Assembly (NCBI RefSeq): GCF_000235565.1
Contig: NC_017527.1
Span: 62,001 to 126,000 of the forward strand
From: Methanothrix harundinacea 6Ac
GTDB lineage: Archaea > Halobacteriota > Methanosarcinia > Methanotrichales > Methanotrichaceae
Reading direction: 5' to 3'
Length of the DNA stretch: 64,000 bases
The translations under genes and the position numbers were made by a program. Of this stretch, positions 10,888 to 14,574 are shown piece after piece; the first letter of the stretch is position 1, and the number at the start of each line of letters is the position of its first letter. Under the pieces are notes generated by a model. The model made no database searches. It saw nothing but the letters and a program-made list of their open reading frames with translations, and was not told where the DNA came from.

Positions 10888-11154
10888 TCAAAGGCCGAGG
10901 CCGAAGAAGTCCAGGATGATGACGGCGATCGCCCCCGGTGCCCCCAGGAGGGCGCAGACGAGAAGGACCGGCAGGCTGTAGGGGATGGCGAGGCCTCCGA
11001 CGGCGTTGGCAAGGAAGAGGATGAGGAGGCCGACGAGGGTGTGGACGGCCAGAAACTTTACGGACCTCATGATCAGGCTGAAAGAGGCGTATATCGCGAA
11101 TATGAGGAGCAATCCCAGGATCAGGATCTCGACTTGGACCATGAACGACCCCAT
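10888..11154 (-). CDS. BofA family membrane protein
   Basis: An 88-residue protein with three hydrophobic segments. It ends in the BofA-family glycine/proline-rich segment GLAIPYSLPVLLVCALLGAPG. The family is named for the Bacillus inhibitor of pro-sigmaK processing, but archaeal homologues have no known partner protease. It starts 13 bp after the stop of the large symporter gene on the same strand, so it is probably cotranscribed with it. Confidence 0.82.
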   Translation of the reverse strand: MGSFMVQVEILILGLLLIFAIYASFSLIMRSVKFLAVHTLVGLLILFLANAVGGLAIPYSLPVLLVCALLGAPGAIAVIILDFFGLGL

Positions 11155-11167
11155 GCCATAACCTTAT

Positions 11168-14100
11168 TCATCCCTTTTCCTCTCCGACCAGGAGGACCTC
11201 CATCTCGCTGACGAGCCTGTGCCTCTCCTTGAGGTCCAGGGCCAGGGGGTCGATGTGGATCATCAATATCCCCCTCTTCAGGGCGACCTCGTCCCTCTGG
11301 GACTGGACGAACCTCAGGACCGACTCGTAGTTGCTCTGGGTTATCAGGTAGCCGAGCCCTTCCAGCAGGATCAGGGGCTCATCGGCCCTGGAGAGGAAGT
11401 CGGAGATCATCCCGCTGAGCCTCGGGAAGTTGGTGGGGTCTACCTGCCGCACCTCCGGCCCAATCCCCGCCGACTGGGTCAGCCATATCACCCTCTCGGG
11501 GGGGAGGCCGTACCTCTCCATCAGCCTCTCGGGGTGGTACCTGCTGATGCAGAGCCCCTCCACCCCCCGGGCGACGAGGTCGGCGTAGATCCTCAGGCTC
11601 TGGACCGGCTTCTCCTCCTCGAGGACGTAGGTCGTCCCGGGGGCGAGGCGGAGCTCTATGGGGTGGAGGCCGTACTTGGCCATCAGGGGCCTTGCGGCCT
11701 GGAGGAGGTCGAAGGTCGGGTCCGCCGCCTCGATCGCCCTCCCAAGGCGCCTCAGGGCCGCAAAGAACTCCCAGCGGCTGAACCTCGACCTGGAATATAC
11801 CTTCAGAGAAGACCCCCGGGAGGAGAGATCGATCTCGCCCATCTCGGGGTCGCAGCCGACGTCCTCCCCCTCCCCCCGGATCCCGGCGAAGACCTTCTCC
11901 GTCTCCACCATCTCCCCGATGCTCCTCTGGACCGTACCCCTGGCCGGCTCGTCGAGCCTCTTGAGGAAGGAGTCGGCGAAGGCCTTGAAGAGGTAGGCGG
12001 AGAGGGGGCCCAAGAGGAAGATCAGCTGATGGGCCTCGTTGATCTCCGCAGATAGCCTTCTGTTGACGAACTCCTGCCTCGCCTGGATGATGAGCCTCGT
12101 CCTGCCCCTACTGGAGAGCTCCTCCAGGGCGTGGACGAAGTCGAGGACCTCCGCCTCGGGGACGGTGGAGGCGTTCTCCTCGATCAGCTCTTCGAGGCTG
12201 TCCAGGAGGATGATGTTGTTCTTGCTCTTCTCGACGAAGGACTTTATCGTTATGAAGATGAGGGGGAGGTTGTTGGGGGCTATGTACCTATCCCCCCGCC
12301 CCCGCTGGTGGCTGAGCCTGATGATGGGGGTCTCGGTGAAGTGCCACCTCGAGCGGATCTCCTCGGGGTCCGAGGAGGTTATGCAGAGCCCCTCGACCCC
12401 GTGGGTGATCTGGTCGGTGAAGACCTCGTAGGCCTTCTCCGGGATTATGTAGACCTTCCCCGGATCGAGGGTGTATACGGGGCTCGTCTCCTGGATCACC
12501 TCCACCACCGGCTTCACCCCCACCTCGTCCTCGACGATCATCCTCGTGGCCGTCGGCCCCAGGGAGCCGGTGAGGGTCTTCTCCAGCCTGTCCTTCAGCT
12601 CGAAGAGCTGCCTCGCATCGATCCCCTCCCGGGTCGTCTTGAGGTCGGCGAGGTTCAGCTCGACGACGTTCTTCGCCCTCTCGGCCCCGATGTACCGGGC
12701 CACCGTCCCCTCCAGCTCGTCGACCGTCCCGACCCTTATCACCACGCTCTCGCCGAAGGGGAGGAGGGGAGAGGGCTCGACCCGGGGAGGGGCCCTGTAG
12801 ACGTCGACGAAGCTCTCGGCGAGGGCCTTCTCCTCCCCGCTCGGCTCGTGGATGAGGGAGAAGAGGACGTAAAGGGTGAAGTTCGCCAGGATCGACCAGA
12901 AGAAGGCGTGGGACCAGATCTCCAGCTCCAGCCCCAGGAGGGCCGTCGGCCGGAGGAGGGCGATACCGAAGGGACCCGCGGCGATGAATTCCCTGGAGAT
13001 CCAGCCGGCTTCGGCGAGAGTGGGAAGAAGGGCGGAGTAAGCCCATACGAAGAAACCGGCTACAAGACCCGCTATCGCCCCCTGCCTGCAGCCGCGCTTC
13101 CAGTAGAGGCCGCCGAGGGCTGCGGGCGCGAGCTGGCAGGCGGCGAGGAAGGAGAGGGTTCCGATGTCGACGAGGGCAGGAAATCCCACCAGGAGGGAGT
13201 ATAGGTACCCGAGCCCCACCACCAGGAGGATGTTCAGCCGCTTCAAGGAGAGGATGAGGGAAGGGAGGTTCCGCCCCTTCCCGATCTTTCTGACGATGTA
13301 GGGCATCTCGAGGTCGTTTAAGATCATCGTCCCCACCGCCACCGCCTCGACGAGGACCATGGCGGTGGCGGCGGAGGTGCCGCCGATGAAGACCAGGAGG
13401 GCAAGGAGATCCTGCCCCTGGCTGATGGGGATGGAGACCATGAACATGTCCGCCTTCCCCGGCGCCCCCAGGAGGAGGCCGCCCCAGGCGACCGCCGGGA
13501 CGAAGAGGTTTATCAGCAGGAGGTAGAGGGGAAAGAGCCACATCGCCTTCTTCAGGTGCCCTTTGTCGGAGTTCTCCACCACCATGACGTGAAACTGCCT
13601 GGGGAGGAAGAGGATGGCAAAGGACGACATCGCCAAAAGGGTGATCCAGGAGACGTAATCCACCTCCAGGAGATGAGAATAATCGACGCTCTCGGCGATA
13701 CCGCCGACGATCTCGCCGTAGCCGCCGAGGAGGCCGTAGGTTATGTAGATCCCCGCGGCGAGGAAGGCAACGAGCTTGACCACCGACTCGAAGGCGACGG
13801 CGGCGATGAGACCCTCGTGCCGCTCCAGGGGGTCGAGGTGCCTCGTTCCGAAGATGATGGCGAAGACCGCAAGAAGGACCGCCACCATCAGCCTCCTCAT
13901 CCCCAGGGTCTCGTGATAGTCGCCGCTGATGATCGTCAGGGACTCGGATATGGCTATCAGCTGGAGGGCGACGTAGGGGGTTATGACGATCAGGATCGCT
14001 ACGGCGACGAGGGCTCCTATGACGTAGCTCTTGCCGTACCTGAAGCTTATGAAGTCGCTGATGGTGGCGAGGCGGTGCTCCTTCGAGACGACGATCATCT

Positions 14101-14377
14101 TCCTTATCACCGTCCAGCCGAGGAGCATCACCAGGGAGGGTCCCAGATATATCGGGAGGAAACCGAGCCCCTCGGTGGCGCACCTTCCTACGGAGCCGTA
14201 GAAGGTCCAGGCGGTGACGTAGACGGAGAAGGAGAGGGCGTAGACGTAGGGGTTGGAGACGATGCTCCGGCCCATTTCGCGCTTTCTGTCGGCGTAATGG
14301 GCTATCCCGAAGAGGAGGAGGAGGTATAGGACCATCGCCGCCAGGGCAAGAAGGGGGTTGATCAACTCGAGGTCCAC
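11168..14377 (-). CDS. SLC5-type Na+/solute symporter fused to a STAC-like segment and two DUF835 domains
   Basis: A 1,069-residue fusion. Residues 1 to about 510 are a PutP/CbrA-like sodium:solute symporter core with about 13 membrane helices (SVYVTAWTFYGSVGR, then FLPRQFHVMVVENSD). Residues about 545-575 (IRVGTVDELEGTVARYIGAERAKN) resemble the STAC linker found in bacterial symporter-histidine kinases. Two DUF835 domains follow, at about 640-765 (VEGLCITSS) and 913-1065 (VEGLCISRY). No kinase is present. This looks like a transporter-shaped receptor feeding an archaeal signalling module; the substrate is unknown. The GTG start overlaps the small upstream gene by 16 bp. Confidence 0.85.
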   Translation of the reverse strand: MDLELINPLLALAAMVLYLLLLFGIAHYADRKREMGRSIVSNPYVYALSFSVYVTAWTFYGSVGRCATEGLGFLPIYLGPSLVMLLGWTVIRKMIVVSKEHRLATISDFISFRYGKSYVIGALVAVAILIVITPYVALQLIAISESLTIISGDYHETLGMRRLMVAVLLAVFAIIFGTRHLDPLERHEGLIAAVAFESVVKLVAFLAAGIYITYGLLGGYGEIVGGIAESVDYSHLLEVDYVSWITLLAMSSFAILFLPRQFHVMVVENSDKGHLKKAMWLFPLYLLLINLFVPAVAWGGLLLGAPGKADMFMVSIPISQGQDLLALLVFIGGTSAATAMVLVEAVAVGTMILNDLEMPYIVRKIGKGRNLPSLILSLKRLNILLVVGLGYLYSLLVGFPALVDIGTLSFLAACQLAPAALGGLYWKRGCRQGAIAGLVAGFFVWAYSALLPTLAEAGWISREFIAAGPFGIALLRPTALLGLELEIWSHAFFWSILANFTLYVLFSLIHEPSGEEKALAESFVDVYRAPPRVEPSPLLPFGESVVIRVGTVDELEGTVARYIGAERAKNVVELNLADLKTTREGIDARQLFELKDRLEKTLTGSLGPTATRMIVEDEVGVKPVVEVIQETSPVYTLDPGKVYIIPEKAYEVFTDQITHGVEGLCITSSDPEEIRSRWHFTETPIIRLSHQRGRGDRYIAPNNLPLIFITIKSFVEKSKNNIILLDSLEELIEENASTVPEAEVLDFVHALEELSSRGRTRLIIQARQEFVNRRLSAEINEAHQLIFLLGPLSAYLFKAFADSFLKRLDEPARGTVQRSIGEMVETEKVFAGIRGEGEDVGCDPEMGEIDLSSRGSSLKVYSRSRFSRWEFFAALRRLGRAIEAADPTFDLLQAARPLMAKYGLHPIELRLAPGTTYVLEEEKPVQSLRIYADLVARGVEGLCISRYHPERLMERYGLPPERVIWLTQSAGIGPEVRQVDPTNFPRLSGMISDFLSRADEPLILLEGLGYLITQSNYESVLRFVQSQRDEVALKRGILMIHIDPLALDLKERHRLVSEMEVLLVGEEKG

Positions 14378-14574
14378 CTGTCGAAGAGATAAGCCGAGGA
14401 GATGATCAGAAGCCAGACCGAGATTATGTAGACTAGTATCGAAGGTCGGCCGGAGGCCTCCCCCCCGCCCGACAGGAGGGAGAGGATGGGCCAGTTGAGG
14501 AGGACGCCTCCGAGGAAGAAGAGCAGGATCCAGAACTCGTCCTGCTCCATCAGATCTTTCAACGATATCTTCAT
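14362..14574 (-). CDS. Small two-helix membrane protein coupled to the symporter fusion
   Basis: A 70-residue protein with two hydrophobic helices (about residues 14-34 and 46-64) and an acidic N-terminus (MKISLKDLMEQDEFW). Its stop lies inside the symporter gene: the 16-bp overlap means it is translated just before the symporter. Small two-helix proteins encoded just upstream of bacterial SLC5 receptor kinases (CbrX before CbrA) have the same arrangement, which suggests an accessory subunit. That role is inference. Confidence 0.7.
   Translation of the reverse strand: MKISLKDLMEQDEFWILLFFLGGVLLNWPILSLLSGGGEASGRPSILVYIISVWLLIISSAYLFDRWTSS

Follow-up and report, generated by a model that had tools for sequence, protein, structure and literature searches.

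An archaeal SLC5-STAC protein with tandem DUF835 domains in the position of a histidine kinase, and a KaiC-like ATPase gene beside it in many Methanotrichales

What stands in the place of the histidine kinase when a CbrA-type receptor is found in an archaeon? The question is raised by Methanothrix harundinacea 6Ac, a source genome of 2,571,034 bases in two contigs, from which a stretch of 64,000 nucleotides (the window, within which all positions below are counted) was analysed. A minus-strand gene of this window, at 11168..14365 when read from its likely TTG start, encodes an SLC5 transporter, a STAC domain and two DUF835 domains. An earlier note, made from the letters of the DNA, had described an SLC5 symporter, a STAC-like linker and two DUF835 domains in a receptor-like fusion, and all of these parts were found on the minus strand. 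In 2017, STAC-containing signalling proteins were stated to be absent from Archaea (PMC5715377). SSS domains have been noted in some archaeal putative kinases (PMC7918813), so that archaeal transporter-sensors are not new as such. A literature search returned no report of an SLC5-STAC protein with DUF835 or KaiC, although a mention in the paper on KaiC hubs or in the original STAC paper is possible.

The transporter domain is of the CbrA type and spans residues 5-510 (12848..14365, minus strand). Residues 16-617 of the protein align with the SLC5-STAC chain of the cryo-EM structure of CbrA (10ed_A; E 5e-83), and the SLC5 core is homologous along its length, with a core identity to bacterial SLC5-STAC members of up to 52%. 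Alignment with CbrA indicates that the residues of the pocket are conserved together with the lysine of the Na2 site, since Lys201 (13775..13777, minus strand) is the equivalent of CbrA K196, a residue with a role in the Na2 site and a predicted part in proton coupling (PMC13022988). The retention of both pocket and lysine makes it plausible that the archaeal protein binds or transports a solute and is coupled to protons. The STAC domain follows the SLC5 domain directly (residues 546-618; 12524..12742, minus strand) and contains the motif LGPTA, LGPx(x)A being the motif described for STAC (PMC4834066). The stretch that had been picked out by eye as STAC-like, VDELEGTVARYIGAERAKN, sits at the start of this domain, and the relationship that the earlier note suspected for residues 540-640 proved sound. 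A profile of archaeal residues 543-626 alone gave a match of 99.0% to a profile of bacterial STAC (E 4.1e-18, profile-profile comparison), and the top PDB match of the archaeal STAC-only profile was to residues 520-591 of CbrA, its own STAC domain (E 1.5e-5); a chance visual match is ruled out by these two results. The full-length AlphaFold model was uninformative (pLDDT 41), and the low-confidence STAC region within it consists of four helices, interrupted midway by a gap of nine residues, as described for Af1502.

Upstream on the same strand lies a gene of 70 codons for a two-helix membrane protein (14362..14574, with an ATG start and a TGA stop), here called CbrX-like. How the two genes meet depends on the start codon of the larger one. 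Its reading frame can be extended to 1069 residues from a GTG at 14377 (11168-14377, minus strand), and an overlap of 16 bp results from taking this GTG as the start. A start codon is found at the GTG position in 13 of 37 distinct archaeal loci, and in 8 of the 37 an in-frame stop falls within the first four codons of the longer reading. The codon four triplets downstream of the GTG (+12) reads TTG, ATG or GTG in 34 of these loci and CTG in 3, and it is followed by A in 36/37, the resulting NTGA being shared with the stop codon of the small gene. Judged from these alignments, translation of the large gene most likely begins with the TTG of 14363-14365, and the two genes would then share the 4 nt TTGA (14362..14365, minus strand). 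The overlap reported in the earlier note stands; its length of 16 bp is better read as 4 nt. Recoding of the in-frame TGA or TAG of several relatives was also considered and was rejected, because the inspected cases are a stop just upstream of the likely start. The corresponding overlap in P. putida, between cbrX and cbrA, measures 17 nt, and the two genes are coupled in translation (PMC6591292).

All 37 archaeal loci for which upstream DNA was available keep the small gene. With a false match (L089) set aside, it is also found at 30 of 37 bacterial SLC5-STAC loci, which bears out the suggestion that a small upstream partner is present as in bacteria. Two positions of the protein, P29 and W54, are invariant, and N27, P44, Y49 and I58 are nearly so. 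The dN/dS values of P0002 against nine relatives (0.17-0.67), coupled with conservation in 37/37 loci, indicate that the small open reading frame is a real gene. No Pfam or NCBIfam family scored above cut-off for the small protein, and a PDB search with its profile gave no match to CbrX. When compared with this profile, CbrX matched weakly on its own (27.5%) and at 98.8% with intermediates, being reached through an Amphritea orthologue, and homology to CbrX is on this basis probable. On the other side of the large gene, just downstream and on the same strand, is a gene for a small membrane protein of the BofA family (10888..11154, minus strand). It is retained in most, not all, genera, and its membership of the system is uncertain.

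The output end of the large protein is formed by DUF835-1 (12080..12439, minus strand; E 2.7e-13), the more divergent copy, and DUF835-2 (11201..11608, minus strand; E 2.9e-33), the most conserved portion of the tail. Both copies match PF05763 (115.4 and 50.7 bits against a cut-off of 33.1; E 2.1e-46 for the whole protein), and they are the only Pfam matches above cut-off in the large protein. HisKA, HATPase, GGDEF and SpoIIE gave no match in it, and the DHp and catalytic ATPase domains are absent; a hidden kinase output was ruled out on the lack of any kinase-domain match. DUF835 has been described as an inactivated KaiC that acts as an output domain of archaeal response regulators (PMC5847659). 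A REC-PAS-PAS-DUF835 protein was confirmed in a relative, and its DUF835 matches DUF835-2 at 99.8%. When modelled alone, DUF835-2 reached a pLDDT of 83 and a pTM of 0.83, with two of five models poor. Foldseek searches with this model placed KaiC CI (E 2.6e-4) and then FlaH (E 2.8e-4) on top, and the RecA-superfamily ATPase PH0284 had the highest TM value in the list (0.68, E about 1e-3). The model thus predicts a KaiC/RecA-like fold for DUF835-2. The large protein (P0001) has no Walker A (P-loop) motif, and the Walker A pattern is matched in one of 29 orthologues (L020). Direct comparison by hhalign of DUF835 with the KaiC-like protein that neighbours it in relatives was not significant (1.3%, E 0.04), so that the link between DUF835 and KaiC rests on fold and literature.

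DUF835 is also met outside these fusions. Stand-alone DUF835 proteins of about 220-250 residues with a Cys-rich insert (CESIGCxxC...CxCKxC) are encoded by several further genera of the family (L091-L101); none is present in the M. harundinacea genome itself. In Methanosarcinaceae, a REC-PAS-PAS-DUF835 gene is followed by a gene for a 379-residue protein that matches no Pfam family above cut-off (L130:315-3120, minus strand), and the same pair is found at L135. Viral contigs searched for further DUF835 sequences contained none.

Among 17 bacterial SLC5-STAC proteins checked, the output is a histidine kinase in 15 (some with an added receiver), GAF-SpoIIE in one and GGDEF-EAL in one, and DUF835 is found in none of them. 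The proposal that DUF835 occupies the kinase position of a CbrA-type receptor in an archaeon is upheld by these comparisons: the STAC assignment holds, the small partner is kept, and the bacterial relatives carry a kinase, SpoIIE or GGDEF-EAL at the same place. The GAF-SpoIIE phosphatase output belongs to the protein at L058:154-3387 (minus strand) and the GGDEF-EAL output to that at L088:3947-7138 (plus strand). A full SLC5-STAC-PAS-kinase-receiver gene is carried by the P. aeruginosa plasmid pPALO11 (L085:3944-7423, plus strand).

If the kinase is gone, a candidate for the next component is provided by the relatives of M. harundinacea, in many of which the small gene is directly preceded by one for a single-domain KaiC-like ATPase (PF06745). 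With a threshold of E below 1e-46, 29 of 50 Methanotrichales genomes, from 9 of 11 genera, have an orthologue of this ATPase. Wherever both genes lie on one contig (28 genomes), 202-220 nt separate the KaiC-like gene from the SLC5 match, which is the space taken up by the small gene, and Walker A of the KaiC-like protein is intact at all 21 readable loci. The KaiC-like gene, the small gene and the SLC5-STAC-DUF835 gene form a gene cluster. The genus of M. harundinacea has lost the neighbouring KaiC-like gene, which is absent from the window and from all nine genomes of the genus (0/9), and for this reason it could not be seen by the author of the earlier note. The gene is also missing in g6 and in 11 of 26 g8 genomes, some g8 genomes being incomplete (g6 and g8 are our labels). 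Relaxed selection on DUF835 was not seen where the neighbour is missing, the domains being no less conserved there, and the KaiC-like gene is therefore not indispensable. In g8, the Walker B Asp of the KaiC-like protein encoded upstream of the small gene reads Glu (IEN, MEN or LEN) at L023, L027, L030, L031, L036, L038 and L043; taken with the g8 genomes that lack the gene, this looks as if the partner were decaying. L037 and L038, near-identical SLC5-STAC-DUF835 loci from sister genomes, differ in the presence of the upstream KaiC-like gene. The M. harundinacea genome does have another KaiC-like ATPase elsewhere, at G000:C2:2141439-2142122 and 31% identical, which is a possible partner in trans. 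Its gene (L140:2841-3647, plus strand) lies between those for a GNAT protein and for glycogen synthase/glycosyltransferase.

The SLC5-STAC-DUF835 gene is present in 50/50 Methanotrichales genomes, in some as fragments on contig ends. A phylum-wide draw recovered it from 14 of 393 genomes, all Methanotrichaceae, and from none of the 379 other Halobacteriota genomes sampled. SLC5-STAC proteins that are up to 49% identical occur in 36 of 198 genomes from the phylum of the bacterial relative L008. The archaeal SLC5-STAC halves form one clade with a support of 100 in a tree of 75 rows, built by a quick method with a midpoint root and with CbrA as a long branch. This pattern fits one transfer, with bacteria as the presumed donors, followed by vertical descent.

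The explanation that we favour, and consider just probable, is that the protein is a CbrA-type transceptor that was acquired horizontally and in which KaiC-type signalling has replaced a histidine kinase as the output. The anatomy of such a transceptor is well supported, and its mechanism is what we infer from it. A small solute would be bound or carried by the SLC5 core, probably together with protons that pass by way of Lys201. The resulting movement would be handed on by STAC, a domain that in CbrA is docked beneath the transporter at its cytoplasmic mouth (PMC13022988). STAC would then reposition the two membrane-tethered DUF835 domains, and this pair, which is without an ATP-binding loop, would offer a docking surface to a KaiC-like ATPase that relays the signal onward. 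In M. harundinacea the DUF835 domains may dock the KaiC-like ATPase whose gene lies elsewhere in the genome, or a different partner. The SLC5 part would be stabilised or dimerised by the small protein, a role also proposed for CbrX, which binds TM3/TM8 of the CbrA SLC5 domain (PMC13022988). The broader claim, that a single-copy nutrient transceptor across the whole order signals by docking of a KaiC-family ATPase on inactive KaiC-like domains and not by phosphotransfer, is tentative and in our estimate falls somewhat short of probable. Acetate is a plausible ligand, attractive because these archaea live on acetate and because CrbS regulates acetate use in bacteria (PMC5715377). An attempt to read the substrate from the pocket residues was abandoned, as the archaeal pocket is of the type most often seen in bacteria and does not tell substrates apart.

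The tail could instead regulate transport. The protein would then be mainly a solute symporter, possibly for acetate, with STAC and the DUF835 pair gating it from inside in response to the state of the cell or to a KaiC-like protein. A complete SLC5 core with a conserved pocket would suit this role, as would the position of STAC at the cytoplasmic mouth of CbrA, itself a histidine transporter (PMC13022988, PMC7096432), and the single-copy state of the SLC5-STAC-DUF835 gene in the genome of an obligate acetate user. However, the bacterial counterparts of the chassis bear signalling output domains and DUF835 is a response-regulator output domain, and we think a regulatory tail unlikely; an acetate symporter has the added difficulty that the M. 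harundinacea genome paper already names another acetate transporter candidate, Ady2/Mhar_0433 (PMC3349665). It is also conceivable that the DUF835 pair acts alone or with partners other than KaiC, perhaps as a module that binds a ligand or serves as a scaffold, and that the KaiC-like neighbour is accessory or unrelated. DUF835 is found in many proteins for which no KaiC neighbour is shown, and in the genus of M. harundinacea it persists without visible decay although the KaiC-like gene is gone. Such independence from KaiC is nonetheless distinctly unlikely, given the constant spacing of the KaiC-like gene in every checkable genome, its spread over most of the genera and the KaiC-like fold predicted for DUF835 itself.

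A further doubt attaches to the small open reading frame, which might be a mere translational coupler, a leader whose peptide has no function. P. putida CbrX with an altered sequence still permits translation of CbrA (PMC6591292), and growth on histidine does not need CbrX (PMC13022988). Against this stand the sequence of the small protein, kept across archaea and bacteria with its invariant P29 and W54, its dN/dS values, and the behaviour of CbrX, which co-purifies with CbrA (PMC13022988). Several bacterial small genes also stop well before the start codon of the large gene, so that coupling cannot be the role of those copies, and a functionless leader appears very improbable.

If the CbrA-type transceptor with a KaiC-type output is the correct explanation, it would represent a signalling pathway from transporter to KaiC for which no bacterial counterpart is known. 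To our knowledge, few KaiC-like hub proteins have an identified input. A role as major signalling hubs of archaea has been suggested for KaiC-like ATPases and for their inactive relatives (Makarova et al., 2017, as cited in PMC5847659). Here, a well-understood input module, with a bacterial relative of high-resolution structure, is fused to inactive domains and in most genera adjoins an intact KaiC-like ATPase, so that three genes suffice for a direct test of the hub idea. STAC signalling proteins now extend to a whole archaeal order, and a small-subunit family is defined that has no Pfam or NCBIfam model. As the hosts are obligate acetate-using methanogens, their nutrient sensing bears on methane formation.

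Two archaeal systems share single features with the one described here. The SSS-domain putative kinases of Nitrosocaldus (PMC7918813) have a transporter-type input, but a kinase is predicted there, and the stand-alone Af1502 proteins (PMC4834066) are archaeal STAC proteins but have no fused output; the accessible portions of these two reports mention no link to DUF835 or KaiC. CrbS/MxtR, RpuS and other bacterial SLC5-STAC sensors have a common chassis with swappable signalling outputs, whereas the 17 that were checked are without DUF835 and none is archaeal. The locus resembles CbrX-CbrA of Pseudomonas (SLC5-STAC-PAS-histidine kinase; PDB 10ed) in its SLC5 core, STAC domain, pocket residues and Na2-site lysine, as well as in the small two-TM gene that lies upstream and overlaps. 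Unlike CbrX-CbrA, it has no response-regulator gene alongside within the window, and two DUF835 domains are found where CbrA has PAS-DHp-CA; the SLC5 cores are 35% identical and the pockets differ at CbrA A56 and F248. The REC-PAS-PAS-DUF835 response regulators of Methanosarcinaceae have an output domain close to DUF835-2, but in the protein described here the input is a transporter and not a receiver domain, and DUF835 is duplicated.
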